From contig JAVYML010000001.1 in NCBI GenBank assembly GCA_038736355.1, forward strand, positions 306,908-370,907: a stretch of DNA of 64,000 bases, read 5' to 3'. Origin of the DNA: Candidatus Hadarchaeales archaeon. Its GTDB lineage: Archaea; Hadarchaeota; Hadarchaeia; Hadarchaeales; WYZ-LMO6. The position numbers and the translations under genes were made by a program. Shown piece after piece: positions 1 to 20,929 of this stretch; position 1 is the stretch's first letter; each line of letters begins with the position of its first letter. The notes under the pieces are model-generated. The model did not search any database. It was given only the letters and a program-made list of their open reading frames with translations, and had not been told where the DNA came from.

Positions 1-38
1 AAACTAGAATAAACTTCTGTCTCCAAGTGGTTGTGAGG

Positions 39-1085
39 ATGAAAAGCGATTTGAAAGTATTCATTTGGCAGGGGGGATGGCTGGGAGGAGCGGAAAGAGT
101 GATGCTTGGACTTGCGGAGACATTTAAGAGTCATGCCCGAATAGAGCCTGTTTTAGGGGTTTTTGAAAAAAACGAAAACATCGATTTTAAACAGGTTTGC
201 GTGAACAGAATTTTTCCGGAAAAGGCGGTTGGATATAACACGATTTGGGCCTCGTTTTATCTGAATAGAAAAGGTATTCTTGATGATTTTGATATCGTTA
301 TAGCCCATGGGGGCGGAATGTGGAAAACTAGGAAAAACTTCTACGTTTGTCATGAAGCAGGGGATCTAGATGCTTTAGCAAAAAACCTGCCCCTATTCTC
401 CAAGCTCACATTTTTTCCTCTGAAAGAGCTTTACATTTGTTTTATCAAAAAATCTGATCTAATCATATCAGCCACAAGAGAATGTGACAGATTTTTAGAA
501 AGGCATGGTGTGAGGGATTACGTAAAGGGGCGCAATTTTGTGGATACCAAATTTTTCAGACCAAATGGAAAAAAACCAGGCGGAGCTTTTAAGATTCTTT
601 TCGTCGGAAGGAATGAACCTAGAAAAAACCTTGGGGCTCTGAAAGAAGTCTGCAGAAAACTTCGTGGAGTTGAGCTCAACATAATCGGAGCGGTAGGAGA
701 AAATGAGGGGGATGTTAGATATCTAGGTTATGTGAGTGATGAGGAGCTCGCTGAATGGTACAGAAGATCTCATCTTTTTGTTCTGCCATCTTTCTGGGAG
801 GGCTTTTCTGTTTCAATTCTCGAGGCGATGGCGAGCGGGACCCCTGTCCTAGCTAGCGTATATGCCATTCCGGAAGAATTGAAGAAATTTGCTATTACTT
901 TTGATCCATACTCAAAAAACGAGCTTTCCAAAAAGATTCAATGGATAATGGAGAACTATAAAGATGTGACAAGGATTGCCAAGAAAGCGAGAAATTTCGT
1001 CGTCAAAAACTATGAGAAAGAGATGGTTTTGAGATGGGAGGTAGAAACGATTCTCGAAAGATTCAGAAGGAGGAAAAGAAGATGA
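39..1085 (+). CDS. Glycosyltransferase family 4 (GT-B)
   Basis: A retaining GT-B glycosyltransferase expected to add a sugar from a nucleotide donor to a growing surface glycan at the cytoplasmic membrane face. The N-terminal domain opens with a glycine-rich loop (GGWLGGAERV, about residues 11-20), as in GT4 enzymes. The C-terminal domain has ILFVGRNEPRKNL and the donor-site motif PSFWEGFSVSILEAMASGTPV, with the usual E-x7-E glutamates. About 348 residues, a normal length. I place the start at the ATG at 39; a GTG at 27 is in frame. Its stop overlaps the next start (ATGA), so the two are translationally coupled. AT-rich like the rest of the locus. Acceptor and donor cannot be named. Confidence 0.85.
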   Translation: MKSDLKVFIWQGGWLGGAERVMLGLAETFKSHARIEPVLGVFEKNENIDFKQVCVNRIFPEKAVGYNTIWASFYLNRKGILDDFDIVIAHGGGMWKTRKNFYVCHEAGDLDALAKNLPLFSKLTFFPLKELYICFIKKSDLIISATRECDRFLERHGVRDYVKGRNFVDTKFFRPNGKKPGGAFKILFVGRNEPRKNLGALKEVCRKLRGVELNIIGAVGENEGDVRYLGYVSDEELAEWYRRSHLFVLPSFWEGFSVSILEAMASGTPVLASVYAIPEELKKFAITFDPYSKNELSKKIQWIMENYKDVTRIAKKARNFVVKNYEKEMVLRWEVETILERFRRRKRR

Positions 1086-2302
1086 ACTACAAAGTTCTCT
1101 TCATTCCTGGAAATGTCTACCACGTTAGAATGTTTTCCAAAGTTGCGAAGAAGCTGAAAGGAGATGTACTTGCGATAAGTTTGGAAGGATACGGCGAAAA
1201 GGGTAGAGCTGGGATAGAGCGAGCACTTCAAGAAAACGGAATTCGATTTAAACGGGTTCAAGATTATCGAAAGAAGGATCCGGAGTTTATCCTACGAGAG
1301 GAGAAACCCGACGTTGTGGTTGTTTTAAACGATATCGACCCAGGTTGTCTCTATTTCGTCAGAGGAGCTAACAGACTGGGAATACCAACGCTTCTCATAG
1401 CTGAAGGGATAGTTGTGGACACTCCGCATAGAAGCTTAGGACCAAGTTATTTCATAAATATCATCAAAAATGTTTTGTTCTCTGGAAATATTGCTCATTC
1501 CATAAAACTTCTCGTTAGAAGAACTTCCAGCATATTGTCCGGAAATCCTGAACCAGGATATGATAGGTATGGTGCTGAGTGTATGAAAATTGCTGTCTGG
1601 GGCGAATATTCAAAGAAATTTTTTGAAAGTAGAGGCATACCGTCGGAAAAGATTGTAATCACGGGAAATCCACTGATGGACGATATTTTTAGATTAAAAC
1701 CGAAGGCCGATAAAATAAAAAAGCAATTGGGTTTACCAGCTGGGGCTAAACTCATTGTGTACGCTTCTTGTAATCCTATTGATATTCAGTATTGGACGGA
1801 AGAGGAGACAGCTCATCTAGTGAGACTTTTAAACAAGATAGTGCTAAACATGAAGAACTGCTTTTTGCTTATCAGACCTCATCCAACTGAACCGAACGAA
1901 AGATATCTGCGCTTTTTACAAGGAGAGGATACAAGCAAAACATTCGTGAGCAAAAAGGAGAATCTTTACGATTTGTTGGCTTCTTGTGATCTCTTGATAA
2001 CTGAGGGCTCAGTAGTGGGGAGCGAGGCCGCTGCAATGGGAAAACCCGTAATAATCGTCAATTTAACCGGTAAACCCTACCTAAACAGATATTACCCCAA
2101 ATTGTTAGCTGACGAGGGAGTAGCCATTGAGGTTCTAAAAGAATATGAACTCGACAACTTAATCAAGCGGCTTCTGAAAAGCAAAGACCTTGCGAAAAAT
2201 CGCTGGAAATTTATAAGAAAGTATTTCTATAAGTTGGATGAGATGTCTTCTCAGCGGGTGGCTAGTTTAATAGAAAAACTTGCCAGAGGGCGGGGCGGAT
2301 AG
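1082..2302 (+). CDS. GT-B glycosyltransferase, CDP-glycerol/epimerase-like
   Basis: Likely a glycosyl- or glycerophosphotransferase with the fold of UDP-GlcNAc 2-epimerases and CDP-glycerol transferases. Seen in the sequence: a hinge segment ITGNPLMDDIF, then LLIRPHPTEP, and the late motif TEGSVVGSEAAAMGKPVI that binds the nucleotide in this superfamily. The ATG at 1082 overlaps the stop of the upstream GT4 gene; an in-frame upstream ATG at 1034 lies inside that gene and is less likely. About 406 residues. Residues near 215 are encoded by DNA that recurs almost exactly at 3485-3514. The substrate is unknown. Confidence 0.75.
   Translation: MNYKVLFIPGNVYHVRMFSKVAKKLKGDVLAISLEGYGEKGRAGIERALQENGIRFKRVQDYRKKDPEFILREEKPDVVVVLNDIDPGCLYFVRGANRLGIPTLLIAEGIVVDTPHRSLGPSYFINIIKNVLFSGNIAHSIKLLVRRTSSILSGNPEPGYDRYGAECMKIAVWGEYSKKFFESRGIPSEKIVITGNPLMDDIFRLKPKADKIKKQLGLPAGAKLIVYASCNPIDIQYWTEEETAHLVRLLNKIVLNMKNCFLLIRPHPTEPNERYLRFLQGEDTSKTFVSKKENLYDLLASCDLLITEGSVVGSEAAAMGKPVIIVNLTGKPYLNRYYPKLLADEGVAIEVLKEYELDNLIKRLLKSKDLAKNRWKFIRKYFYKLDEMSSQRVASLIEKLARGRGG
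1701..1729 (+). repeat. Copy A of a 29/30-bp direct repeat
   Basis: The stretch beginning CGAAGGCCGATAAAATA and ending GCAATTG recurs at 3485-3514 with a single extra A in its A-run. Copy A is coding, inside the GT-B gene at 1082-2302; copy B lies in a non-coding remnant. A 29-base match with one indel is not expected by chance in this window and points to recombination or partial duplication inside the glycan locus. Confidence 0.8.
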
Positions 2303-2305
2303 CTT

Positions 2306-3467
2306 ATGAGATTTTTATTCCTAAATCCTGATTTTCCTTATAAGCAAAACGACCAAATAATAATCACGGGCGGATTACAAGCACACGGTTTTTTTATAGC
2401 GAGAGAACTCGTCAAAAGAGGACACGAGGTAACTGCTATAGCTTTTTTACCACAAGGCAGAACGGAGGTAATTGATGGAATTAGGGTTTGTAGAGTTGGG
2501 AACTGGACTACCGAACACAGTGTGTTTAAGAAGACATTTAATTTTGGAAAAAACTTGATGGAGCTTTTAAGAGCTGGAATGTTTATAGCCGAGGAATATA
2601 AACCAGACTTCATCTACAGTTGGTCAAGTGAAGGCTTTATTATTTCTCCCGTGATAAGTAAACTGTATAAAATCCCGTTTATTGCAAGCATCCATGGTAT
2701 CGGCGGGTTGAATGTGTTGTTTTACGGTTTCTTTTTGAACAAGGGAGCATATGCCTGCCCCACGTCTCTAGGGGAGCTAGTGCTCGCGACACTTGGTACA
2801 CTTGGTAGTAGGATGGCAGATCTGGTTGAAACGATCTCTACAGAAAGTAAAAAACTTATCATAGATTTCGTCGGAATTGATGCCAGAAAGATCTTTGTGA
2901 CTGGCAATGGTGTGAATATTGAAGATTACGAATATTCTGAAGACAAGGAAAACCTAATCGTTGTTCTGGGCAGACTTACTCGCGTTAAACGAGTTGACAG
3001 GGCAATAGAGATCTTTAGAAGGGTAAAAGAGAAAGTGAAGGATGCGAAACTGTGCATTATAGGTGATGGTCCGGAAAAGGAACTACTGATGCGTATGACA
3101 AAAAACGAATCTGATATTATTTTTACCGGCATAATACCAGAGAAAGAAAAAATTTCTCTTCTGAAGAGAGCAAAAATCTATCTTTCGTCCTCTTCTCATG
3201 AAAGTTTGAACATTCCACTTTTAGAAGCTTGGGCATGCGGAGCTTATCCAGTAGTTCCCCACATCCCTGCTTTTGTGAATATTGTTGGTCCTTATGGATT
3301 CGTTTACAAAGAAGAAAGTTAGAGCAATTACGCATATGCTAATTCAAGAAAATGAGAGAAAAAAATGTACATACGCCGCAAGGAAGTTTGTAGAAGAAAA
3401 CTATGATTTTGAAAAAATAGCAGATAAATTTATCTCAGCAGTTGCTAGTCGGGATAGTAAAAGATAG
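2306..3467 (+). pseudogene. Glycosyltransferase family 4, frameshifted
   Basis: A GT4 glycosyltransferase whose reading frame breaks near 3310-3325. The first frame (2306-3322) gives the N-terminal domain (GGLQAHGFFIARELVKRGHEV) and most of the C-terminal one (VVLGRLTRVKRVDRAIEIF, then SSSSHESLNIPLLEAWACG), and stops after VYKEES. The expected C-terminal tail continues in another frame from about 3320 to 3467 as AITHMLIQENERKKC and FVEENYDFEKIADKF, the usual final helix of GT4 enzymes. About ten residues before the tail also seem missing. Either a true pseudogene or an assembly indel. Starts four bases after the previous gene. Confidence 0.75.
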
Positions 3468-3479
3468 AGAATTTTAACT

Positions 3480-3556
3480 TTTAGCGAAGGCCGATAAAAT
3501 AAAAAAAGCAATTGCATATGTTTATTCAAAAAATAGAGAAAAAGCATAAATCGGTG
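3480..3556 (+). pseudogene. Glycosyltransferase tail remnant with repeat copy B
   Basis: Between the broken GT4 gene and the cytidylyltransferase gene, one frame reads LLAKADKIKKAIAYVYSKNREKA and stops. It resembles the C-terminal tail of a GT4 enzyme and is similar at DNA level to 3328-3375. It contains repeat copy B (3485-3514), nearly identical to 1701-1729. No start codon or ribosome-binding site goes with it, so I read it as a leftover of a duplicated or deleted glycosyltransferase gene. Confidence 0.45.
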
Positions 3557-3573
3557 CAAGTGTAATTTGAACG

Positions 3574-4338
3574 ATGAAAACTGCGGTGTTGATTCCGGTA
3601 AGAATAAAATCGACTAGGTTGCCCAGAAAACCCTTAAAAATTATAAAAGGAAAAAGAGCGATTGAACACCTTATCGAACGGGTAAAAACAGCCAAGCTTC
3701 CAGATCTAATAATTCTCTGCACCACAATTCGTTCGGAGGACTTGATTTTGGAAAAAATAGCCAAAACTTATAAAATAGAATGTTTCAGAGGAAGCGAAAA
3801 AGACATTATAAACCGGCTCTTTCATGCAGCTCTAAAATATAACGTGGACTTCATAGTTAACGTGGATGGAGACGACATTTTGTGTGATCCAGAACTTGTC
3901 GATCAAACAATACGGGTCTTCAGAAGGAGTAAGGCTGATGTTATCAGATGGGAGAACCTTCCTTTGGGGGCAGCTCCCTTTGGAATCAAAACAGAGGCGA
4001 TAAAAAAAGTTTTATCAATTAAAGCTACAAATAACACAGAAACTGGATGGGTGAGATATTTCACTGATACAGGATTGTTTAAAGTGAAGAAAATGACCCC
4101 AAGTGATGAGAGACTCAAGAGGCCGGACATAAGAATTACTCTTGATTACCCAGAAGATCTTAAATTTTTCAGAAAGATCTTTGAAAAACTCTATAAACCT
4201 GGAAAGATAATTTCTTTGAAGGATGTAATTCAACTTTTAGAAAAAGAACCACAGCTCTTGGAGATAAATAAAAATGTCAGAGAAATTTATTGGAAAAGAT
4301 ATATTCGTAATTCAAAAATAAAAATAAAAATAGAATAG
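3574..4338 (+). CDS. CMP-nonulosonate (acylneuraminate) cytidylyltransferase
   Basis: Activates a nonulosonic acid (sialic, legionaminic or similar) with CTP to give the CMP-sugar, the last soluble step before transfer. The start (MKTAVLIPVRIKSTRLPRKPL) is the nucleotide-binding motif of the NeuA/KdsB/SpsF family. An acidic metal-site motif NVDGDDILCDPELV follows at about residue 92, and ITLDYPEDL near 190 is typical of SpsF-like members. 254 residues. The NeuB and NeuC homologues downstream support a LegF/NeuA role. The exact sugar is inferred from neighbours, not from this protein. Confidence 0.82.
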   Translation: MKTAVLIPVRIKSTRLPRKPLKIIKGKRAIEHLIERVKTAKLPDLIILCTTIRSEDLILEKIAKTYKIECFRGSEKDIINRLFHAALKYNVDFIVNVDGDDILCDPELVDQTIRVFRRSKADVIRWENLPLGAAPFGIKTEAIKKVLSIKATNNTETGWVRYFTDTGLFKVKKMTPSDERLKRPDIRITLDYPEDLKFFRKIFEKLYKPGKIISLKDVIQLLEKEPQLLEINKNVREIYWKRYIRNSKIKIKIE

Positions 4339-4345
4339 AGATACC

Positions 4346-5350
4346 ATGAAATTCCTAATAGTTGGTCTGGGTTCAATGGGCAAACGGAGGATTCGTAATT
4401 TGATGCGTTTGGAAGCAGGCGAGATAATTGGTTTTGATGTTTTAGAAGATAGGCGAAAAGAAGCTAATGGAAAATATGGGATAAAAAGCTTTAGCGAGTT
4501 CGAGGAGGCAATGAGGGAAAATCCTGATGTACTTATCATCTCTACTCCTCCCGATTTACACATGAAATATGCAATAATGGCCGCTCAGGAGAATAAACAC
4601 TTCTTCACCGAGGCTAGCGTGGTAGACGACGGCATGGAGAAGCTCATTCACCTGTTGAAAGACAAAAAGATAGTTGCAGCACCATCTTGCACTATGAGGT
4701 TTCACCCTGCAGTCAGAAAAATAAAGGAACTGGTGGATCGGGGAGCTGTTGGAAAACCTCTTTCGTTTACATATCATTCCGGTCAGTATCTTCCCGACTG
4801 GCACCCATGGGAAGATTACAGGAAGTTTTACGTTGCGAGGAGGGAAACCGGAGCAGCGAGAGAGATAGTTTCGTTTGAGCTGGTCTGGCTCGTTTGGGTT
4901 TTTGGAGATGTAAGAGCAATATCGTGTTTCAAGGGAAAGATCTCGAGACTGGATGTTGATATAGATGACGTTTATCAGCTTCTGCTCAAATTCAAGAGTG
5001 GTCTTCTTGGACACTTACTCGTGGATGTCGTGGCCAGGTACCCAACTCGTTACTTTAGACTAGTTGGAGAAGAAGGAACGATCGAGTGGAGCAGAGATAC
5101 TGGTATAGTGAGGCTGTATAGGGCTGATGAAAAGCGCTGGGAGAATTTTTTGGCTGGAGAAGGAATCCCAGAGAAGGGCTATATCACTGGGGAGGATATG
5201 TACGTAGAAGAGATGAAGGCCTTCATAAGAGCAATAAAGGGAGAAGCAGCGTATCCATACACCTTCGAGGAGGATTGGAAGATACTAAAGCTGTTGTACG
5301 CAGCTGAGAGGAGCTCAGATGAAGGAGTTCATGTGGAGGTGAGTCCATAA
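4346..5350 (+). CDS. Gfo/Idh/MocA-family oxidoreductase
   Basis: NAD(P)-dependent sugar oxidoreductase. The Rossmann motif is near-perfect (LIVGLGSMGKRRIRNL, residues 3-18), and the segment ISTPPDLHMKYAIMAAQENKH holds the family's cofactor and substrate contacts. The usual EKP motif reads EASV here, so the lysine often found at that place is absent, and the catalytic assignment is open. The start lies 8 bases after the cytidylyltransferase, and its TAA overlaps the next ATG. This gene type often sits with NeuB and SpsF genes, suggesting it modifies a nonulosonate or its precursor; the substrate is unknown. Confidence 0.8.
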   Translation: MKFLIVGLGSMGKRRIRNLMRLEAGEIIGFDVLEDRRKEANGKYGIKSFSEFEEAMRENPDVLIISTPPDLHMKYAIMAAQENKHFFTEASVVDDGMEKLIHLLKDKKIVAAPSCTMRFHPAVRKIKELVDRGAVGKPLSFTYHSGQYLPDWHPWEDYRKFYVARRETGAAREIVSFELVWLVWVFGDVRAISCFKGKISRLDVDIDDVYQLLLKFKSGLLGHLLVDVVARYPTRYFRLVGEEGTIEWSRDTGIVRLYRADEKRWENFLAGEGIPEKGYITGEDMYVEEMKAFIRAIKGEAAYPYTFEEDWKILKLLYAAERSSDEGVHVEVSP

Positions 5351-6663
5351 TGAAGATCAGGAGAGGCCCTCGACTCTGGGAGAAAGCGAAGACCCTCATA
5401 CCGGGAGGTTCTCAGCTTTTTTCCAAGCGTGCAGAGCTTTTTTTGCCGTCTTTGTGGCCTGCATACTACAAAAAGGCTAAGGGAGATATGATATGGGACT
5501 TGGACGGTAACAAATTCATCGACATGTCTTACATGGGGGTCGGTACTTGTGTTCTGGGATATGCTGATCCCGACGTGAATAGGTCCGTGGTTCGAGCAAT
5601 ATCGTTGGGCTCTATGTCCACGCTGAATTGTTTCGAGGAATTGGAGTTAGCCGAACTCCTTTTGAAACTCAACCCATGGGCAGGGATGGTCAGATACGCT
5701 AGAACCGGCGGTGAGGCCATGGCGATTGCCGTGAGGATCGCGCGTGCCTTTACCGGAAAAGACAGAGTGGCCTTTTGCGGCTATCACGGATGGTCGGATT
5801 GGTATCTCTCCGCGAACCTTGCAAAGGACACCAACCTTGATGGTCACCTTCTTCCTGGATTGCAACCCAAGGGGGTTCCAAGGGCTCTGATGGAAACTGC
5901 CCTTCCTTTTAACTATAATAGGATAGAGGAGCTTGAGGGCATCGTTTCGAAGTACAATGACATCGGCACAATAGTCATGGAGCCCGCCAGACATCAGGAG
6001 CCCAAGGATGACTTCCTAAAAAGGGTTCGAAAGATTGCAGATGAAATCGGCGCTGTGCTCATTTTCGATGAGATAACTTCAGGCTGGAGGATGAACGTTG
6101 GTGGGATTCATCGGCTCTACGGGATTGATCCGGATATAGCCGTTTATGGGAAGGCCATGAGCAACGGCTTTCCGATGGCAGCCGTTGTTGGAAAAAAGGA
6201 GGTGATGGATGCCGCCCAAGATAGTTTCATAAGCAGCACATACTGGAGTGAAAGGATCGGTCCTGTAGCAGCTTTAGCAACAATAGAGAAGATGAAGAGG
6301 AGAAACGTTCCCCGTCATCTGTGTAAGATAGGGAACTCGGTGAAAAAAGGTTGGAAAAAGATGGCTAGCGAGCACGGGCTTGAGATAAAGATCGTTGGGC
6401 TTCCACCTCTGGCCACTTTCTCCTTTGAAGGTGAGGACCCTCAGGCAATGCACACACTCTTCACACAGGAGATGCTGGAGAGGGGATTTTTAGCTTCAAA
6501 GAGCCTTTATGCTTCCTACGCCCACACCGAAGAACACGTATCCAAGTATTTGGAATGCGTTGATGAGGTCTTTGGGCTGATAAGAAGGGCAGTAGATAGA
6601 GGGGAACTGCGAAAAATGTTGAAGGGTCCGGTAGCCCAGACAGGCTTCAGGCGTCTAGCCTAG
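5350..6663 (+). CDS. Class-III PLP aminotransferase (HemL-like)
   Basis: A fold-type I, class-III aminotransferase related to glutamate-1-semialdehyde aminomutase. Visible motifs: GGSQLFSKR near the start, ARTGGEAMAIAVRIARAFTG (phosphate-binding region), the YHGW motif, FDEITSGWR with the Asp that contacts the PLP ring, and YGKAMSNGFPMAAV with the Schiff-base lysine. 437 residues, normal length. Genome position inside a nonulosonate cluster argues for a sugar-modifying role rather than heme synthesis. It is coupled by a TAATG overlap to the oxidoreductase, and the two may act together on one sugar. Confidence 0.83.
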   Translation: MKIRRGPRLWEKAKTLIPGGSQLFSKRAELFLPSLWPAYYKKAKGDMIWDLDGNKFIDMSYMGVGTCVLGYADPDVNRSVVRAISLGSMSTLNCFEELELAELLLKLNPWAGMVRYARTGGEAMAIAVRIARAFTGKDRVAFCGYHGWSDWYLSANLAKDTNLDGHLLPGLQPKGVPRALMETALPFNYNRIEELEGIVSKYNDIGTIVMEPARHQEPKDDFLKRVRKIADEIGAVLIFDEITSGWRMNVGGIHRLYGIDPDIAVYGKAMSNGFPMAAVVGKKEVMDAAQDSFISSTYWSERIGPVAALATIEKMKRRNVPRHLCKIGNSVKKGWKKMASEHGLEIKIVGLPPLATFSFEGEDPQAMHTLFTQEMLERGFLASKSLYASYAHTEEHVSKYLECVDEVFGLIRRAVDRGELRKMLKGPVAQTGFRRLA

Positions 6664-6672
6664 GAGGAGATC

Positions 6673-7722
6673 ATGAGGTGCATTAGAATCGGAGAGAGAA
6701 TGGTGGGAGAAGGGAAGCCGTGTTTTATAATAGCAGAGGCCGGAGTCAATCACAACGGGAAGCTCGGACTGGCAAAGAAGCTCATAGACGCAGCCAAAAA
6801 AGCAGGGGCGGATGCGGTGAAGTTTCAAGTCTTTTCGGCAGAGGATTTGGTCACAACAAGGGCCCCTAAGGCGATGTATCAAAAAAGAGCAACTGGGAAA
6901 GGCACTCAATACGAGATGCTTAAAGAACTTGAGTTGTCTGAAAGCGAGTTTGAAACTCTGGCAAAATATGCAAAAAAAAAGAGAATAGTCTTCTTGGCTT
7001 CAGCCTTCAACGAAGAGAACGTGGATCTCGTCGAGCGTTTGGGCGTCCCCGCATTTAAGGTCCCTTCCGGGGAAATCACAAATTTTCCGCTTTTGAGGCA
7101 CATAGCGAGGAAGGGCAAACCAATTATCTTGTCTACAGGCATGTCTACGCTGGAGGAGGTGCAGGAGGCCTTGGAGGTGATGAAGAAAGAGGGAGCAGGG
7201 GATATAGTCCTGCTCCATTGCGTGAGCAACTATCCCGCAAAAATCGAGGAGGTAAACCTGAGAGCGATAAAGACGTTGAGGTCGGCGTTTGGGGTACCCG
7301 TGGGGCTCTCGGACCATACGGTTGGCATAACTATCCCTATAGCTGCCGTAGCGATTGGGGCATCAATTGTAGAAAAGCATTTAACTTTGAGCAAAAAACT
7401 CCCAGGACCAGATCACAAGGCCTCTTTGGAGCCGGATGAGTTCAAGAGAATGGTGGTTGGGATAAGAGAGGTTGAAAGGGCGCTTGGGGATGGAGTGAAA
7501 AGGCCGACCAAAAGCGAGGAAATAATGAAGAAAATGGTGCGGAAAAGCATAGTTGCCAAAACATCCATCCCAAAAGGTACTATAATCTCACAAGGAATGC
7601 TGGAAATAAAAAGACCTGGCACAGGTTTAGAGCCGAAATATATAGATAAGATTGTTGGAAAGAAAGCACGGAAAGACATAGAAGCAGATGAAATTATCAC
7701 ATCAGAAAAAATTGTGTGGTAG
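6673..7722 (+). CDS. neuB: N-acetylneuraminate/legionaminate synthase (NeuB/LegI)
   Basis: Condenses phosphoenolpyruvate with a 2-acetamido or 2,4-diacetamido hexose to form a nine-carbon nonulosonic acid. The TIM barrel begins IIAEAGVNHNGKLGLAKKLI (NeuB signature), with AGADAVKFQ and SDHTVGI further on. The C-terminal SAF (antifreeze-like) domain occupies about residues 285-349 (KGTIISQGMLEIKRPGTG). 349 residues, full length. A clear AGGAGG precedes the ATG by 6 bases. Followed directly by a NeuC-like gene that would make its sugar substrate. Confidence 0.93.
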   Translation: MRCIRIGERMVGEGKPCFIIAEAGVNHNGKLGLAKKLIDAAKKAGADAVKFQVFSAEDLVTTRAPKAMYQKRATGKGTQYEMLKELELSESEFETLAKYAKKKRIVFLASAFNEENVDLVERLGVPAFKVPSGEITNFPLLRHIARKGKPIILSTGMSTLEEVQEALEVMKKEGAGDIVLLHCVSNYPAKIEEVNLRAIKTLRSAFGVPVGLSDHTVGITIPIAAVAIGASIVEKHLTLSKKLPGPDHKASLEPDEFKRMVVGIREVERALGDGVKRPTKSEEIMKKMVRKSIVAKTSIPKGTIISQGMLEIKRPGTGLEPKYIDKIVGKKARKDIEADEIITSEKIVW

Positions 7723-7723
7723 C

Positions 7724-8881
7724 ATGAGAAAGATAGCGGTCCTGACCGGTACGCGGGCTGAGTACGGAATTCTCAGACCCCTTCTCCGAGCGATAGAGAA
7801 TCATCCAAATCTTGACCTTGCGCTTATCGTGACTGGAATGCACCTCTCAGAAGAATTTGGCTATACGATTAAAGAAATAGAAAAGGACGGATTCAAGATT
7901 GACGCTAAGATAAAGATTTTACACAAAGAAGATACTGGATCAGCAATGGCAAAATCAATCGGTGAATGTATAAAAAAAATCACTGAGGTCTTGGACCGGA
8001 TAAAACCTGATTTTTTAGTACTCTTAGGCGATAGAGCCGAAATGCTAGCTGGAGCGGTAGCAGCTTCTTACGCGGGGATTCCAATAGCACATTTACACGG
8101 AGGGGAGGTTTCCGGAAGTATAGATGATTCAGTTAGACATGCGATTACCAAATTGGCACACCTTCATTTTCCAGCTACTCGAAAGAGTGCAAAAAGAATA
8201 ATAAAGATGGGTGAAGAGCCATCCAGAGTTTTTGTGGTGGGAGCCCTAGCTCTTGACACAATATTAAATGAAAAATTGCCAAGTGGAGCTGAGCTTTCTA
8301 AAAAATATGGCCTTGATTTGTCAAAACCTATTTTGTTGGTTGTGCAGCATCCCGTAGTTACGGAAGCCGATGAAGCAGCATATCAAATAAAAGAAACGCT
8401 CGATGCACTAGTTGAACTAAATCGTCAAACTAATAATCAAACAATTTTAATTTATCCCAACGCGGACGCGGGCGGGCGAAGAATGATTAAGATGATAGAA
8501 AAATACAGAAAATATCCCTTTCTAAAGTGCTTCAAGAGCATTCCATTCAATGATTATTTGGGTCTAATGAGCATAGCAAGTGTGATGGTTGGAAACTCGA
8601 GCAGTGGCATAATTGAAGCGCCTTCTTTTCATTTACCAGTAGTGAATATTGGAACAAGGCAGGCAGGACGGGAACGATCGGTGAACGTAATAGATGTCAG
8701 ATACAACAAAAAGGAGATCCTCAGGGCCATAAAAAAAGCTCTATACGATAAAAAGTTCCTAACGAAAGTAAAAAAATGTAAAAATCCATATGGAGACGGA
8801 AAAGCAGCTCAGAGAATCGTAAAAGTTCTTGCGAAGATTAAAATCACACCATCTTTATTACAGAAGAGAATCGTTTACTGA
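7724..8881 (+). CDS. neuC: UDP-sugar 2-epimerase (hydrolysing), NeuC/LegG
   Basis: Hydrolyses and epimerises a UDP-N-acetylhexosamine derivative to release the free sugar used by NeuB. The N-terminus reads KIAVLTGTRAEYGILRPLL, the hallmark of NeuC. Further motifs are LLGDRAEMLAGAVAA, AHLHGGEVSGSIDDSVRHA and the C-terminal VGNSSSGIIEAPSF. An in-frame upstream start would run into neuB; the ATG at 7724, just after the neuB stop, is preferred (385 residues). With a 4,6-dehydratase and a DegT aminotransferase in the same locus, LegG activity on UDP-2,4-diacetamido-trideoxyhexose is the best guess. Confidence 0.9.
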   Translation: MRKIAVLTGTRAEYGILRPLLRAIENHPNLDLALIVTGMHLSEEFGYTIKEIEKDGFKIDAKIKILHKEDTGSAMAKSIGECIKKITEVLDRIKPDFLVLLGDRAEMLAGAVAASYAGIPIAHLHGGEVSGSIDDSVRHAITKLAHLHFPATRKSAKRIIKMGEEPSRVFVVGALALDTILNEKLPSGAELSKKYGLDLSKPILLVVQHPVVTEADEAAYQIKETLDALVELNRQTNNQTILIYPNADAGGRRMIKMIEKYRKYPFLKCFKSIPFNDYLGLMSIASVMVGNSSSGIIEAPSFHLPVVNIGTRQAGRERSVNVIDVRYNKKEILRAIKKALYDKKFLTKVKKCKNPYGDGKAAQRIVKVLAKIKITPSLLQKRIVY

Positions 8882-8889
8882 GGGTAAAT

Positions 8890-9288
8890 ATGGCGAAAAG
8901 ATTCAAAAACTGGAAACCTCCTGAGTTCGACGAGCGCGGCCTAACAAAATGGAACTGGATGTGTCAGTATCACGAAAATCTGAAGCTCGGAAAGAATACC
9001 GACATAGGTGCCTTCACATACATCAACGCAAAGTATGGGGTTGAAATACAGGAAAACGTCCAAATAGGATCCCATTGCTCCATTTATTCCGAATCTACGA
9101 TCGATAGAAAGAAAGGCAAGGTAACGATAAAGAAGAACGCTAAGATAGGATCCCATACCGTGATCATGCCCGGTGTAACCATAGGCGAAAATGCGATTGT
9201 TGCGGCGTGTTCTTTTGTGAACAGGGATATCCCAGACGGCGCTGTGGTGGGAGGAATACCCGCAAAGCCGATAAAAAGATCTTCATGA
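8890..9288 (+). CDS. Hexapeptide-repeat acetyltransferase (LegH-like)
   Basis: A left-handed beta-helix acyltransferase of 132 residues. Hexapeptide repeats run from about residue 34 (LGKNTDIGAFTYIN) to 125, and the end IPDGAVVGGIPAKPIK is typical of sugar O- or N-acetyltransferases. A histidine in KIGSHTVIMPGVTIG is the likely catalytic base. The start is 9 bases after neuC. In a legionaminate pathway an enzyme of this class adds the 4-N-acetyl group, so LegH is the most economical reading; O-acetylation of a finished glycan is an alternative. Confidence 0.78.
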   Translation: MAKRFKNWKPPEFDERGLTKWNWMCQYHENLKLGKNTDIGAFTYINAKYGVEIQENVQIGSHCSIYSESTIDRKKGKVTIKKNAKIGSHTVIMPGVTIGENAIVAACSFVNRDIPDGAVVGGIPAKPIKRSS

Positions 9289-9433
9289 CGAATTTTATCT
9301 AGCAAGTCATCCAGTCTCTTAGTCATCAAGTAGAAAAGAATTCTCACCGTTAGAGTTTACATTCTTGAAAGGAAAAAACCTCTTTTATCTCATGCAAAGC
9401 TTCAGATTATAAGTGGGCGAGATATTATATAAT

Positions 9434-10582
9434 ATGATTACAATGTCTCACAATTGGAAAATTCCGCTGTTCAGGATATACTGGGACGAGGACGACATTC
9501 AGACAGTAAACGGTGTTATAAGAAGGGGCATGTACTGGGCGGCCGGGCCGGAGATAGAGAATTTTGAAAATGAGATTTCGAAATACATCGGCACAAGGTA
9601 CTGCGTGGCTTTTAATTCAGGCACATCGGCGTTGCATGCCGCCCTGTTGGCGCATGGTGTGGGAAAGGGAGATGAGGTGATAGTCCCGTCGTTCACCTTC
9701 ATAGCGACGGCTAATGCTCCCCTTTTTGTCGGTGCAAAGCCAGTTTTCGCCGATATCGATGAGAAAACCCTCGGGCTTGACCCAGCCGATGTGGAAAGAA
9801 AAATCACAAGAAAAACTAGGGCAATCATTCCGATCCACTACGGCGGATGTCCATGCCGGATTAAGGAGCTGAGGGAGATAGCCGATGATCACGGCCTCAT
9901 CTTGATAGAGGACGCGGCCGAGGCATTCGGCGCTAGGGTGAACAAACAGAAGGTCGGAACCTTCGGTGATTCCGCCTTTTTCAGCTTCTGCCAGAATAAG
10001 GTGATAAGCACGGGTGAGGGCGGAGCCGTGGTGACCGACTCAAAAAAAGTATACGAGAGGCTGAAACTCGTGAGATCACACGGCAGGCTTGAGCGCGAGG
10101 ATTACTTTTCCACACCAGAATCCCCCGAGTACGTGAACCTCGGGTACAACTTCAGGATGTCAAGCATCACCGCTGCGCTCGGCATCTCCCAGCTCCGAAA
10201 GGTCGAGAGGTTAATTGATATGAGGAGGAGAGCCGCAAACGCATACGACAGACATCTATCGAGGATAAAGGAGGTGATTTTACCCACCCCTCCCAGCGGA
10301 TTCTACCATGTGTACCAGCTGTACACGATCAGGGTGAGGGGAGGGAGAAATCTCAGAGATGGTTTAATCGAACACTTGAGCCGAAAGGGCATAATGAGCA
10401 AGGTCTTCTTTTACCCCGTCCACTTCACAAAATTTTACAAGCAGAAATTCGCCGTAAGGCTTCCTGTGACGGAGAGTATTTCCAAAGAGGTTCTCTCACT
10501 TCCGATGTACCCGGGTATGACCAACGAGGAGATAAGCTATATAGCCGGCGAGTGTCAAGCCTTTTTCAAGGAATCAACATGA
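9434..10582 (+). CDS. DegT/DnrJ/EryC1 sugar aminotransferase (LegC-like)
   Basis: PLP-dependent transaminase that aminates a 4-keto nucleotide sugar. Conserved parts: FNSGTSALHAALLAHGVG, VIVPSFTFIATANAPLFVGA, IIPIHYGGCPC, LIEDAAEAFGA and SFCQNKVISTGEGGAVVTD with the PLP lysine. About 382 residues, full length. The start is uncertain: ATG at 9434, ATG at 9443 and GTG at 9413 are in frame and none has a good ribosome-binding site. A gap of about 145 bp precedes it, so it may have its own promoter. Its stop overlaps the dehydratase start (ATGA), the pairing expected for 4-keto sugar formation and amination. Confidence 0.88.
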   Translation: MITMSHNWKIPLFRIYWDEDDIQTVNGVIRRGMYWAAGPEIENFENEISKYIGTRYCVAFNSGTSALHAALLAHGVGKGDEVIVPSFTFIATANAPLFVGAKPVFADIDEKTLGLDPADVERKITRKTRAIIPIHYGGCPCRIKELREIADDHGLILIEDAAEAFGARVNKQKVGTFGDSAFFSFCQNKVISTGEGGAVVTDSKKVYERLKLVRSHGRLEREDYFSTPESPEYVNLGYNFRMSSITAALGISQLRKVERLIDMRRRAANAYDRHLSRIKEVILPTPPSGFYHVYQLYTIRVRGGRNLRDGLIEHLSRKGIMSKVFFYPVHFTKFYKQKFAVRLPVTESISKEVLSLPMYPGMTNEEISYIAGECQAFFKEST

Positions 10583-11613
10583 GCGACGATTACTTCGAGG
10601 GCAAGAGGGTGCTCATAACTGGGGGGGCTGGATCGATAGGGTCCGAAATCGCGAAGGCCCTTCTGAAGAAGAAGGCAAAAGTGGTCCGGATACTTGACAT
10701 AGATGAGGAAGGCCTGTTTAAATTGTCGCACGAGCTTTTACCCGATGAGAGAGTTAGGTTTCTAGTCGGAGATGTTAGGGAAAAGGAGAGGGTAAAGCGC
10801 GCGATGGAGGACATTGATATAGTTTTCCACGCTGCAGCTCTAAAGCATGTTCCCTCATGCGAGTACAACCCCTTTGAGGCAGTGAAGACGAATGTTTTTG
10901 GAACCCAAAATGCCTTGGAGGCGGCCATAGATGAGGAAGTTGAGAAGTTCATCACCATCAGCACCGATAAGGCCGTTAACCCGATAAACGTGATGGGGGC
11001 AACCAAACTTCTGGCGGAGAGACTAACGATTTCAGCAAATTACTATAAGGGTCCTAGAAAAACGAAATTTTCCTGCGTAAGGTTCGGAAATGTCTTAGGC
11101 TCCAGTGGATCAGTAATAGAGGTCTTCATCGAGCAGCTAAAGAAAGGAAAACCTCTCACGATCACTGATCCAAGGATGACTAGATTCGTTATGACAATGC
11201 GCCACGCTGTGGAATGTATCTTAAAGGCGACACAAATGGCACAGGGGGGAGAAATTTTCATTTTTAAAATGCCAACTGTAGAGCTAGGAGAACTGGCGGC
11301 TGTGATCGCAGAGGAATTATCTCAAAAGCTGGGACTGGAAAAAATAGAAATGAAAATAATCGGAATAAGACCTGGAGAAAAGTTTCATGAGGAACTTATG
11401 ACTGAAGAAGAATCAGTATGGGCCGAGGAAACTCCTGAAATGTTCATTATAAAACCACTCGTGGAACTTTCTGATGGTATCGTAAGAGAATACAGTTTCT
11501 TGAACGAAGAGTATTTTTCCTCGAGAAAAAGACGTCTTGTTTCAAAAGATGCTACTCCACGTCTGACAAAAGAGGAAATAAAGAAACTTCTCCGTGAGTG
11601 TATAATTTTGTAA
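10579..11613 (+). CDS. UDP-GlcNAc 4,6-dehydratase (LegB/CapD-like)
   Basis: SDR-family enzyme making the UDP-4-keto-6-deoxy sugar that feeds the aminotransferase. The NAD motif is ITGGAGSIGSEIA (residues 12-24). The active-site region reads ISTDKAVNPINVMGATKLLAE: a methionine stands where inverting PseB enzymes have tyrosine, as in the retaining PglF type. About 344 residues: soluble, lacking the membrane domain of PglF. The ATG at 10579 overlaps the aminotransferase stop. Last intact gene of the AT-rich locus. Retention of stereochemistry is inferred from the motif and points to a D-series (legionaminic) product. Confidence 0.85.
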   Translation: MSDDYFEGKRVLITGGAGSIGSEIAKALLKKKAKVVRILDIDEEGLFKLSHELLPDERVRFLVGDVREKERVKRAMEDIDIVFHAAALKHVPSCEYNPFEAVKTNVFGTQNALEAAIDEEVEKFITISTDKAVNPINVMGATKLLAERLTISANYYKGPRKTKFSCVRFGNVLGSSGSVIEVFIEQLKKGKPLTITDPRMTRFVMTMRHAVECILKATQMAQGGEIFIFKMPTVELGELAAVIAEELSQKLGLEKIEMKIIGIRPGEKFHEELMTEEESVWAEETPEMFIIKPLVELSDGIVREYSFLNEEYFSSRKRRLVSKDATPRLTKEEIKKLLRECIIL

Positions 11614-11663
11614 TTGGTTTGTATCTTCTAATAACCATTCCTCGCTCCCAAGAGAACTTTTCC

Positions 11664-12205
11664 TCATACCACTGACGGTATCAATCTCCTCATGTCATTT
11701 AGACCAAAACTGACAAAAATTTTTCCATCTTCGGATTTACAACTTTTTCTTCAACCTCCCAGAAAGCCCTTCTGAGCGGTGCGAACTTTGAACCCAGTAG
11801 ATATCGAACACCCCTCCTTTTCGGATATCTCAGCTTCTCAGCGTAGATGCTCCCATTCAAAACGATGCTTCTTGGTGGATAGTCCAATCTTCTGAAATCG
11901 TCAACAAATAGACACTTTTTTAACTCACTTGCCCACCGATAATGGTTTAGCGACGCCAAGTATGAGTCTATCACAACGAGATCGGCGGAAGAAAGAAAGC
12001 TTTTGAACGTCTCAAAATCATCGATCCAATTTTCCAAAACTACGTCTCTATTTAGAAACTTGACGATTTTTTCATCGCCTTTTACAACGAAGGTGGTCTC
12101 CTCACCAACCTCCTCAAAAGCATCGGAAAGAGCCCTGCATCTGGTTATGTGACCAAAACCTGCACTTTCTCCACCTTCTGTGAAAAACACTATATTGGAT
12201 GACAT
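11664..12205 (-). pseudogene. SpsG/PseG-like UDP-sugar hydrolase, broken
   Basis: N-terminal half of a PseG/SpsG-type nucleotide-sugar hydrolase: VFFTEGGESAGFGHITRCRALSDA (residues 5-28, here shown in two parts of the GGxxxGxGHxxR motif), LVVIDSYLA and LLGSKFAPLRRAFWE. The frame hits a stop at 11699, but one base over it continues as KIFVSFGLND, matching the start of the family's second domain (usual form LVSFGGSD), and stops again at 11664. So there is a frameshift inside an A/T run and the C-terminal half is gone. It faces the nonulosonate genes. Confidence 0.75.
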
Positions 12206-17165: not shown

Positions 17166-17552
17166 TTAATCCCCCAGCAGCACGGCGTTCACCACGCCAT
17201 CCTGCCCCGGCCTGCTCGTTACCCTGGCCCTCCCCAGCTCCGTCCTGATCACCGCTCCCTTCGTCACGATGTTCCTTCTGACGTAGTGGGGATTGGAAGG
17301 ATTCTCCACTACCCCCAAAATTTTAACTACCGTGTGCCTTCCCGTCCGCGGATCGAAAACGTTGGCCTTCTCCGCCACCCTCAACCTGATCTTCCTTCCC
17401 CCGCCCATGGTCCTCACCACCACCTTCTCCTCACCTTCCCCCACCACCACGGGGACATACTCCTCTCCCAGCTCCCTCTTCCTCTTTTCCCTCCTCCTCC
17501 AGATGCGTCCGCCACTCGGCTTTTTCAGCGACCTACCCTGCCACCTGCCCAT
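17166..17552 (-). CDS. rps8e: 30S ribosomal protein S8e
   Basis: Archaeal/eukaryotic small-subunit protein. The start [19 protein letters not shown] is the S8e signature, followed by basic residues, and the C-terminal half holds [19 protein letters not shown] and [20 protein letters not shown], both highly conserved. 128 residues, normal for archaea, where S8e lacks the eukaryotic insertion. Lies 35 bp downstream of scpB on the same strand and may be co-transcribed with the smc operon. Confidence 0.97.
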
Positions 17553-18112: not shown

Positions 18113-18749
18113 CCCTCATCGGCCTCACGTAAATCTCCCCGAAGGGTTCCTCTTGCCTCAGCCCAATCCTTCCCCTGTTGAAGAGGAAGAGGAGGAGGAG
18201 AAGGGTCCTCACGGCGCACTTCCTGGTCCTCTCCTCCAACAGCTTGGAAAACTCCACCTCCCCTCCCCCGGAGAGGGAAAGGATCTTGGAGTAAAGGGCT
18301 TCCATGAGCTCCTCTATCTTGAGTCTGAACTCGTTGATCCTCTTCACCAACTTTTTCACGAGCTCCCTTTCCTCCCTCCTCTCCGGAGGGACTTCCCTCA
18401 GGGCTTCCCTCAGGGCGGAGAGGAGCTCCTCCAGCGTCACCTTCTTTCCCTCGTGCTGGATCAGGACGATGGGGCCCAGTTCGGGAAGTTCCAGTTCCGG
18501 CAGTTCCAGGATTTCCTCCCCATTTCCCTCCTTCCCGTTTCCCATTCCCTCCGCCTTCATCCTCAGCAGGGTGGAGGCCGAGAGCATGGCCCTTCCGGAA
18601 AGCCTTAGATCCGGACCGTTTCCAAGGATCTTCCTGGAAAGAACCTCCATCACCACCTCTATGTCCACCTCCCAAGGATCCAGTTTCTTCTCCTGAACCA
18701 GGTGGAGGAGGATCTCGAAGGGTTCGTCCACTACCACTTCCATCTTCAT
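18054..18749 (-). CDS. scpA: Segregation and condensation protein A (kleisin)
   Basis: Kleisin that bridges the SMC head domains. The N-terminal helical part has FEILLHLVQEKKLDPWEVDI (near residues 11-30), typical of ScpA, which binds the SMC neck. The C-terminal winged helix is around 175-225 (VEFSKLLEERTRKCAVRTLL) and binds the other head. 231 residues, normal for archaea. Its ATG overlaps the smc stop (ATGA) and its end overlaps scpB. The acidic middle (NGEEILELPELELPELG) is probably a flexible linker binding ScpB. Confidence 0.9.
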   Translation of the reverse strand: MKMEVVVDEPFEILLHLVQEKKLDPWEVDIEVVMEVLSRKILGNGPDLRLSGRAMLSASTLLRMKAEGMGNGKEGNGEEILELPELELPELGPIVLIQHEGKKVTLEELLSALREALREVPPERREERELVKKLVKRINEFRLKIEELMEALYSKILSLSGGGEVEFSKLLEERTRKCAVRTLLLLLFLFNRGRIGLRQEEPFGEIYVRPMRDGDGAGEGQGTGLRCPVRE

Positions 18750-20929
18750 CCCCCGTATTTGGAGAGGTCGAGGGAGACGATCCTGGAGACCCCTCCCTCC
18801 ATGACCACCCCGAAGAGCCTATCCGCCACGCTCATGATGGGGTCCTTGAGGGTAACCACGATCACCTGGGAGTTTTCCGCATACTTCTTGAGAAGCCTTG
18901 CCACCCTCGGCACCTTCTCGTCGTCCAGATGGGCATCTATCTCGTCGAAAACGTAAAAGGAAGCGGGCCTGAGCCTCTGTACTGCCAGGATGAAGGCGAG
19001 GGCCGTGAGGGATTTCTCCCCTCCCGACATGGCTTCAGCCCTGAGCACTTCCTTACCCGCAGGTCTGGCCACGATCTCCACCCCTCCCCTGAAGGGATCC
19101 TCCTCGCACTCCAGCACGAGCCTCGCTTCCCCCCCTGGGGAGAGCTCCGAAAAGATCTTCCCGAAGTTCTCCGAAAGCTCGTTGAAAACGGAGAGGAAGG
19201 CCTCCCTCTTCCTCCTCTCTATTTCCTCCATGAAACTCAGGATCACCTGTTTCTCCCTCTCGAGCTTCTCATGGGTTTCCCTAAGGGAAAGGTACTTCCT
19301 CTCCTCCTCCTCGAACTGTTCCACCGCCTTCATGTTCACGGGCTCCAGTTCCCTCATCTTGGCCTCCAGCTCCCTGGCTTCCCTTTCCAGTTCCCTTTCC
19401 CCCTCCTCAGCCCTCCTCAGCCTCATCCCTTGGGCCTCGTTTTCCAGTTCCTCCAGCCTGAGGGAAAGGGAGCGCTCCTCCGCTTCCAGTGCTCCCTTCT
19501 GCTGCTCCACTTCCCTGAGCTTGGCCTCCAAGGAGCGCCCCTCCTCCTCCAGCCTGTCCAGCCTCCTCCTCAGTTCCTCCCTCCTCTTCCTCCTCCTCTC
19601 CACTTCCTCCCCCGCCTTCCTCTCCAGGGAGGAAAGCCTCTCCAGCTCCTTCTGGGCCCTCAAAAGCTTCTCCCCCACCTCCTTCCTTCCCTTCTCTATC
19701 TGGACCAACCTGGCCCTCAAGTAGAGGAGCCTTTCCCTCGCATCGGAAGGTTCTTTCCCCTCCATGCCCTCCTCCACCTCCTCGAGCAACCCCTTCAGCT
19801 CCTCCACCGCCTTCCTCAGCATCTTCAATCCTTCCAGCAACTCCTCCGGCGATCCATGCCTCTTCCTCAGGAAGGAGGAACTGAGTTCCAAGAACCTCTG
19901 ACACCCCTCCTTGAGCCTCTGGAGTCTCTCCTTCAGGGGGGGTCCAGCCCTCTTCACCTCTTCTTCCAATCCTTCCATTTCCCTCCTCACCTCCTCCCCA
20001 TCCCTTTCAAGGGCTTCCAGTTGTTCCCTCAAGTCCTCCACCCTCTGTCTGGCCTTTTCCGCTTCCAGGGTGGGCATCGCCCCCTCTATTTCCTCCCCAA
20101 GCCTCCTTTCCTCCTCCTTCAGGGAGGAGATTTCCTCCACCAGCTCGCTATATTTTTCTCCCAGCTCCTTCGCCCTCCTCTCGAGCTCCCCCCTCCTCTC
20201 CCTTACTCCAGCAAGCTCTTTCCTGCACTTCTCCCTCCTCAGCCAGAGGAGTTTTCCCCTCACCTCCTCCAGTTTCTCCTTCAGCTCCCTGTACCTCAGG
20301 GCATTCTCCCTCTCCGTCCTGAGCCTCTCCACGTTCTTGGAGACCTCCTCCAAGAGGGTGCGAAGGGAAGAGAGCTTACCCTCCACCCTGTTCAGCTCCC
20401 CCAGCGATTTCTCCTTCTTGGCCTCGTACTCCGCTATTCCCGCCAGCTCCTCCACGATTCCCCTCCTCTCCAGGGGAGTCATGTTCACGAAGCGATCCAC
20501 ATCCCCCTGCAGGATGAAGTTGTACTCTCCCATCCCCAGGTCCTTTCCCAGGAGGTCCACCACCTCCTGCCTGCTCAGGCGCTTCTTGTTGAGCATGTAA
20601 GTCGATCTCCCTTCCCTGTCCACGATCCTCGTAATCACCACCGTCTTGGAATCGACTTTCAGCCCCCCATCCTCGTTGTTGAAGTGGAGGGAGACCTCGG
20701 CATAGGGAACCGATTTGCCCTTCCCCCTGAAGAGGAAATCGGAAAACCTCTCCGCACGCATGGTCTTGGCGCTCATCCATCCCAACACGAAGCAAAGGGC
20801 ATCCACGATGTTGCTCTTTCCCGAACCGTTGGGTCCCCCTATGACCGTCAGACCCTTCGAAAGGGGTAGCTCCACCCTGTCCCTAAAGGATTTGAAACCC
20901 TTCAGCTCAAGCTTGCTGGCGTACGGCAA
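18746..20929 (-). CDS. smc: SMC ATPase, short form without a visible hinge
   Basis: Chromosome-condensing ATPase. N-terminal head: Walker A GPNGSGKSN (33-41), Q-loop ILQGDVDRFVNMTPLERR (139-156). C-terminal head: signature AMSGGEKSLTALAF (633-646), Walker B YVFDEIDAHLD (659-669), D-loop. Between them (about 165-575) is Glu/Arg/Lys-rich coiled coil, broken only around 329-400 (prolines 330, 331, 361, 394). Archaeal SMC proteins are normally near 1,150-1,200 residues with a 150-200 residue glycine-containing hinge; here the total is 727 and no hinge is seen. Nor is there a Rad50-like CxxC hook (one lone Cys, 343). The reading frame is uninterrupted. Start is TTG at 20929 with GGTGAGG before it. 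Heads the smc-scpA-scpB operon. Confidence 0.92.
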   Translation of the reverse strand: MPYASKLELKGFKSFRDRVELPLSKGLTVIGGPNGSGKSNIVDALCFVLGWMSAKTMRAERFSDFLFRGKGKSVPYAEVSLHFNNEDGGLKVDSKTVVITRIVDREGRSTYMLNKKRLSRQEVVDLLGKDLGMGEYNFILQGDVDRFVNMTPLERRGIVEELAGIAEYEAKKEKSLGELNRVEGKLSSLRTLLEEVSKNVERLRTERENALRYRELKEKLEEVRGKLLWLRREKCRKELAGVRERRGELERRAKELGEKYSELVEEISSLKEEERRLGEEIEGAMPTLEAEKARQRVEDLREQLEALERDGEEVRREMEGLEEEVKRAGPPLKERLQRLKEGCQRFLELSSSFLRKRHGSPEELLEGLKMLRKAVEELKGLLEEVEEGMEGKEPSDARERLLYLRARLVQIEKGRKEVGEKLLRAQKELERLSSLERKAGEEVERRRKRREELRRRLDRLEEEGRSLEAKLREVEQQKGALEAEERSLSLRLEELENEAQGMRLRRAEEGERELEREARELEAKMRELEPVNMKAVEQFEEEERKYLSLRETHEKLEREKQVILSFMEEIERRKREAFLSVFNELSENFGKIFSELSPGGEARLVLECEEDPFRGGVEIVARPAGKEVLRAEAMSGGEKSLTALAFILAVQRLRPASFYVFDEIDAHLDDEKVPRVARLLKKYAENSQVIVVTLKDPIMSVADRLFGVVMEGGVSRIVSLDLSKYGG

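Follow-up and report, generated by a model that had tools for sequence, protein, structure and literature searches.

We identified in a Candidatus Hadarchaeales archaeon an SMC protein with both ATPase heads, two coiled-coil arms and no hinge, whose gene stands first in an intact smc-scpA-scpB operon. Hinge loss in the Hadarchaeal order is ancestral and maintained, and no earlier archaeal example of an order-wide hinge-less SMC with a kleisin operon seems to be on record: the open-access literature (most subscription papers were outside the search) yielded no archaeal hinge-less SMC, nor any accompanied by a conserved scpA-scpB operon. Dimerisation of SMC proteins and DNA binding are functions ascribed to the hinge, which may also act as a gate, and models of loading and loop extrusion build on it. 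We propose, with about even confidence in the reading as a whole, that the protein is a natural condensin in which a hairpin on flexible linkers serves as dimeriser and arms of about half length are held constant, with one Hadarchaeal origin and parallels in unrelated bacteria of reduced genome.

The features of the locus, within the window analysed (the whole stretch of 64,000 nucleotides), are collected in Table 1. The Pfam SMC_N model covers residues 5–714 of the protein (E=1.8e-67), and the closest NCBIfam model is SMC_prok_A (TIGR02169; E 1.7e-180), whose score of 602 bits lies under the full-length cut-off of 729, which is what an SMC without its middle part should give. Walker A, Q-loop, signature and Walker B are all intact and invariant across 22 orthologues and, together with the archaeal position of the heads in the tree described below, they bear out an earlier note on this DNA, which had read both heads as complete and archaeal. 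The smc stop and the scpA ATG share four bases (ATGA), and the S8e-like gene probably belongs to the same transcription unit. The note's claim of an intact operon that keeps ScpA and ScpB also stands, given the Pfam matches and the conserved gene order in the genomes. In positions 1–12000 of the window the GC content is 0.39–0.47, against mostly 0.52–0.62 elsewhere in it, and this may be an acquired region.

Table 1. Features of the Hadarchaeal smc locus (positions in the window; residues of the SMC protein)
Feature	Position	Strand	Remarks
smc	18746..20929	-	ORF; TTG start, 727 aa; archaeal SMC without hinge
ATPase head, N-terminal half, residues 1-164	20438..20929	-	colinear with 5xei; alpha/beta in model
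Walker A GPNGSGKS	~20813-20836	-	column invariant in 22 orthologues
Q-loop Q141	in N-terminal head half, 20438..20929	-	invariant, 22 orthologues
N-terminal coiled-coil arm, residues 165-328	19946..20437	-	helix in AlphaFold models
Apical hairpin helix 1, residues 332-355	19865..19936	-	AlphaFold tip model and conservation
Apical hairpin helix 2, residues 361-390	19760..19849	-	AlphaFold tip model
C-terminal coiled-coil arm, residues 395-535	19325..19747	-	helices in AlphaFold models
C-terminal coil and ATPase head half, residues 536-727	18749..19324	-	invariant columns; SMC-head structures closest
Signature SGGE	~19016-19027	-	invariant, 22 orthologues
Walker B YVFDEID	~18935-18955	-	invariant, 22 orthologues
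scpA (kleisin), 231 aa	18054..18749	-	Pfam SMC_ScpA 2.4e-14, Rad21_Rec8 3.4e-8
scpB, 174 aa	17588..18112	-	Pfam SMC_ScpB 1.3e-30; overlaps scpA
Ribosomal protein S8e-like gene, 3' of scpB	17166..17552	-	ORF; putative identity, read from sequence

The hinge was searched for in several ways. SMC_hinge (PF06470) gave no match to the Hadarchaeal SMC even at E<=10, residues 300–420 included, the region that the earlier note had named for this check. A custom HMM built from 21 archaeal hinge domains and run as hmmsearch --max, with filters off, gave no match to the 727-aa protein and at most 2.7 bits for any orthologue, while it does detect canonical archaeal and most bacterial SMCs. Alignment of the hinge profile to the tip or to the whole protein by hhalign reached a probability of 0.2%. 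No CxxC motif occurs in any of the 22 orthologues, as the note had it for this protein, and a zinc hook at the Hadarchaeal apex is thereby ruled out. PF06470 and the custom HMM both miss full-length gammaproteobacterial SMCs, for example a 1154-aa one from Marinobacter, so a missing hinge match alone is weak evidence and a hinge diverged beyond recognition has to be considered. Nevertheless, the space between the arm ends is about 60 residues, half a hinge; the two AlphaFold models (full length and residues 284–432, both monomers) hold only helices between the heads; and the hinge of the sister genome G027, the single other member of the phylum compared, is detected at 1.4e-27. It is the profile negatives joined by the lack of room and the two all-helical models that carry the absence of the hinge, and a divergent one is very improbable, being ruled out by Pfam, custom HMM, hhalign and both models as far as sequence and models reach.

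The short SMC is present in 27/27 genomes of the order, as 22 full-length genes (725–772 aa) and five split over contig ends. Its closest named relative, the SMC of Candidatus Hadarchaeum yellowstonense (L061), matches over the whole length with 42% identity. The whole-genome search found PF06470 above the cut-off in none of the 27 genomes, which rules out a split gene or a hinge encoded elsewhere; three of them hold weak matches, below the cut-off, in other frames of 728–747 aa on other contigs. The SMC of G027, in contrast, is canonical and has 1144 aa, and the same search gave a hinge match in 25 of 33 more distant archaea, several of those left without one having SMC matches that are themselves weak. 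In the order's genomes scpA adjoins smc on the same strand and scpB directly follows scpA (27/27); in G027, scpA and scpB lie on a different contig from smc. Since the assemblies are in many cases fragmentary, one might suspect an artefact of assembly or gene calling, or else degeneration of this gene in the presence of an intact, full-length one. One architecture in all full-length and split genes, the lack of inner stops, of a second copy and of a hinge elsewhere in the genomes make this explanation negligibly probable, and the orthologues rule out an assembly deletion at smc. A related genome with a full-length smc, sought within the order as a counter-example, was not found, the same short gene occurring throughout. 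The presence of the short SMC in every genome, with scpA and scpB kept and a hinge in the sister, thus points to an ancestral and maintained loss rather than an assembly error.

Measured between shared landmarks, the arms have 345 and 328 residues in G027 and about 165 and 137 in the Hadarchaeal SMC, so that they are 180–190 residues shorter, in agreement with the earlier suggestion of arms about half as long as usual. Their length is nearly constant, with 166 residues between anchors for the N-terminal arm and 142 for the C-terminal arm, each in 17/22 orthologues. According to Burmann et al. (2017, PMC5344682), the arms of prokaryotic SMCs fall into length classes, with modes at 238, 341 and 515 and perhaps lesser ones at 163 and 423, and SMC function depends periodically on arm length, one period being about 91 residues. 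It is suggestive that the Hadarchaeal arms lie near the 163 mode and that they have lost roughly two such periods, a figure which depends on how the head end is defined. Residues 1–253 align gap-free with Pyrococcus yayanosii Smc (5xei), and so do the last ~250 residues, bar a three-residue insertion; among solved structures, SMC heads (5xei, 5xns and 4i99) come closest, with 5xei (head, coil and joint) as the best fold match. This colinearity indicates that the deletion removed the distal arms and the hinge and spared the head, neck and proximal arm. Short-armed SMCs of 830–872 aa that retain the hinge occur in other archaea (L034, L038, L044, L046, L048, L053 and L054), and arm shortening and hinge loss are thus separable steps.

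In place of the hinge, the full-length AlphaFold model, between the long N-terminal coil that leaves the SMC heads and the C-terminal coil, has a hairpin at about residues 333–388. The model of residues 284–432 alone (mean pLDDT 92.3) resolves helices at 285–328, 332–355, 361–390 and 395–431. The earlier note had described a helical, proline-broken centre at about 329–400; its helical character holds, and its extent is replaced by a defined hairpin, 332–390, bounded by breaks at residues ~329–331 and ~391–394. The models thus contain the small helical tip element that the note had anticipated, and its length is constant: across 22 species the hairpin helices have 27–28 and 28–29 residues, a variation of one residue, while the linkers that join them to the arms differ in length, one spanning 4–19 and the other 6–26 residues, and grow longer in step with each other. 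The tip can accordingly be described as a constant-length hairpin carried on constant-length arms via two variable linkers. Its sequence is poorly conserved, the mean column entropy being close to the value for the distal arms; what is kept is the length and the hydrophobic pattern. Helix 1 has conserved hydrophobic residues at 339, 346, 349 and 353, and in residues 368–385 eight of 18 columns are conserved hydrophobic, the single highest value of 391 windows between the heads. In helix 2 the conserved hydrophobics are doubled at 374/375 and 381/382, which exceeds the needs of a two-helix coil and suggests, from the sequence pattern, that helix 2 packs against further helices. A PDB fold search with the tip returned generic helical bundles only, none at E<=0.001.

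From these features we lean, slightly, towards a putative condensin-type complex in which the hairpins take over dimerisation from the hinge and a smaller ring is closed by ScpA. The ancestor of the Hadarchaeal order lost its hinge together with the distal half of each arm, and the shortened arms would then have been connected by the short hairpin, flanked by its two flexible linkers. Two molecules may associate by packing of their apical hairpins, most simply as a four-helix bundle, with ScpA bridging both heads so that a smaller ring could still form and the linkers supplying the swivel normally given by the hinge. ATP-driven head engagement would load and move the complex on DNA as in other SMCs, without a DNA-binding hinge, and the protein, as the sole orthodox SMC of the cell, would act as a condensin-type Smc-ScpA(B). 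Substitution of the dimeriser has precedents: in Bacillus subtilis Smc a Rad50 zinc hook can stand in for the hinge, the nature of the dimeriser being 'surprisingly uncritical' (PMC5344682), and in yeast the Rad50 hook is replaceable by the MukB hinge (PMC6969161). The part of ScpB in the complex is uncertain, since archaeal ScpA is often found without ScpB binding (PMC7055376).

Alternatively, the tips may stay apart, the hairpin being a turn of the coil, and the protein may be a monomeric ATPase whose contacts with its partner are confined to the heads, by way of ATP-dependent engagement and the ScpA bridge. Some SMC-family ATPases do associate via their heads, the retained ScpA could hold two heads together, and the hairpin sequence is conserved no better than the distal arm. 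For a mere turn, however, neither a hairpin of fixed length between linkers of changing length nor the second row of conserved hydrophobic positions would be required, and we regard this arrangement as unlikely, though of appreciable weight.

The genome also encodes, beyond the window, another SMC-like ATPase of ~618 aa (G000:C1:58113-59970), in which neither a hinge match nor a CxxC was seen. Its gene is overlapped by one of 267 aa (the pair spans G000:C1:58113-60766; L152:4114-6766), and 8/8 sampled orthologues of the latter match Nse4_C, the C-terminus of the Smc5/6 kleisin, weakly (best E 0.001). This kleisin-like gene occurs in at least 21/27 genomes of the order and has a patchy distribution in three further archaeal families. 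By sequence, the two genes are a candidate second SMC-kleisin system. The hairpin of the short SMC might then bind this ATPase in a heteromeric complex, or another protein or DNA. That the order so widely has a second SMC-like gene without hinge match and with its own kleisin-like gene, the latter not found in the hinge-bearing sister G027, speaks for such a partner; against it, the kleisin-like gene was not found in six order genomes, which are mostly incomplete, G007 being 90% complete, and the two systems have no direct link. We consider this doubtful and give it little weight, and retain pairing of the hairpins with each other as the working model.

A tree of 359 head columns, from which the marine Actinobacterial hinge-less SMCs were left out, places the SMCs of the order in one clade (99/96 support), that of Candidatus Hadarchaeum yellowstonense included, inside the archaeal SMCs (archaeal side, 100/100). 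The position of that named relative within the clade assigns the genome to Hadarchaeota. The hinge-less SMC has a single origin within the Hadarchaeal order, and horizontal transfer from the sampled hinge-less bacteria is ruled out by the same tree, in which bacterial hinge-less SMCs stand in at least three separate places (SAR11, SAR86 and a CPR-type group). The CPR and SAR11 proteins (L063, L064, L066, L067, L071–L073, L075, L093 and L108) have 712–812 aa with SMC_N over the whole length; no match to the hinge (PF06470) was found in their genomes, and scpA is present in most of them. Those placed in the tree sit on branches separate from the Hadarchaeal one, so that hinge loss in CPR and SAR11 is apparently independent of it. 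The SAR86 case is less certain, as the hinges of its gammaproteobacterial relatives are unseen by these profiles. A 962-aa Treponema SMC likewise has no hinge match, and the short or hinge-unmatched SMCs of SAR86, SAR11, CPR and Treponema also include L062, L080 and L124. The hinge has apparently been lost repeatedly in bacteria.

In a survey of 394 archaeal genomes for a one-piece short SMC, the sole one-piece case outside the order, among the matches listed, was G365 (772–773 aa; L149:5989-8307). In this protein the hinge is absent and a CPVC motif stands in mid-coil, with a weak ScpA match on another contig of the genome, and it seems to be a naturally occurring SMC that bears a zinc hook of Rad50 type. 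The CPVC and its branching with a different archaeon rule out a common origin with the Hadarchaeal SMC. A Diapherotrites archaeon (L096:3980-6928) has a 983-aa SMC_N protein, either SMC or Rad50, with a Rad50 zinc hook match of 7.3e-5, just under the cut-off.

If the proposed reading is true, the hinge is dispensable for SMC-kleisin function in nature. An order whose only orthodox SMC has no hinge shows which parts evolution treats as essential, namely heads, neck and an arm of set length, and the Hadarchaeal Smc-ScpA(B) would be a small natural complex for testing SMC models. Surveys based on the hinge are blind to such proteins, as is the case for the 2017 arm-length study, which gathered its SMCs by this domain (PMC5344682).

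The earlier note had spoken of a 'distinct condensin architecture', which goes too far in view of hinge-less SMCs in marine Actinobacteria (Sussfeld et al. 2025, PMC12153180), CPR and SAR11, and of the replacement of the B. subtilis hinge by an unrelated dimeriser (PMC5344682). The Hadarchaeal system has the SMC-type ABC head motifs of prokaryotic Smc-ScpAB, heads that branch with the orthodox SMC of related organisms, an antiparallel coil (about half the canonical length) and genes for ScpA and the kite protein ScpB; it does not have a PF06470 hinge between the arms. With P. yayanosii Smc-ScpA (5xei) it shares head, neck, proximal arm and an adjoining kleisin gene, and it differs in lacking the hinge and the distal half of the arms and in its helical hairpin tip. 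The Actinobacterial SMC likewise has SMC heads, an antiparallel coil and neither hinge nor CxxC, and it was not seen beside a regular SMC; it is bacterial, and ScpA is unmentioned in the paper (PMC12153180). The two are of the same kind by structure, which does not imply kinship of lineage, the Hadarchaeal SMC belonging to an archaeal clade far from the bacterial hinge-less ones in the tree (Actinobacterial sequences excluded). Rad50/SbcC has the same head-coil-tip layout without an SMC hinge, whereas the Hadarchaeal protein has no CxxC, lies in a kleisin operon and scores 95.7 bits against a Rad50 cut-off of 700. The ASRPs and coalescin (ClsN, Sph) are also archaeal, SMC-related, short and without hinge, but ASRPs mostly have a zinc hook (PMC9389158), and the Hadarchaeal SMC, with 107 bits against the NF045487 cut-off of 300, is without CxxC and lies in an smc-scpAB operon. 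A further close system is the B. subtilis Smc-zinc hook (PMC5344682), in which SMC heads and arms with a non-hinge dimeriser can support growth; that protein is engineered and carries a zinc hook, whereas the Hadarchaeal one is natural and carries a helical hairpin, with a putative role as dimeriser.
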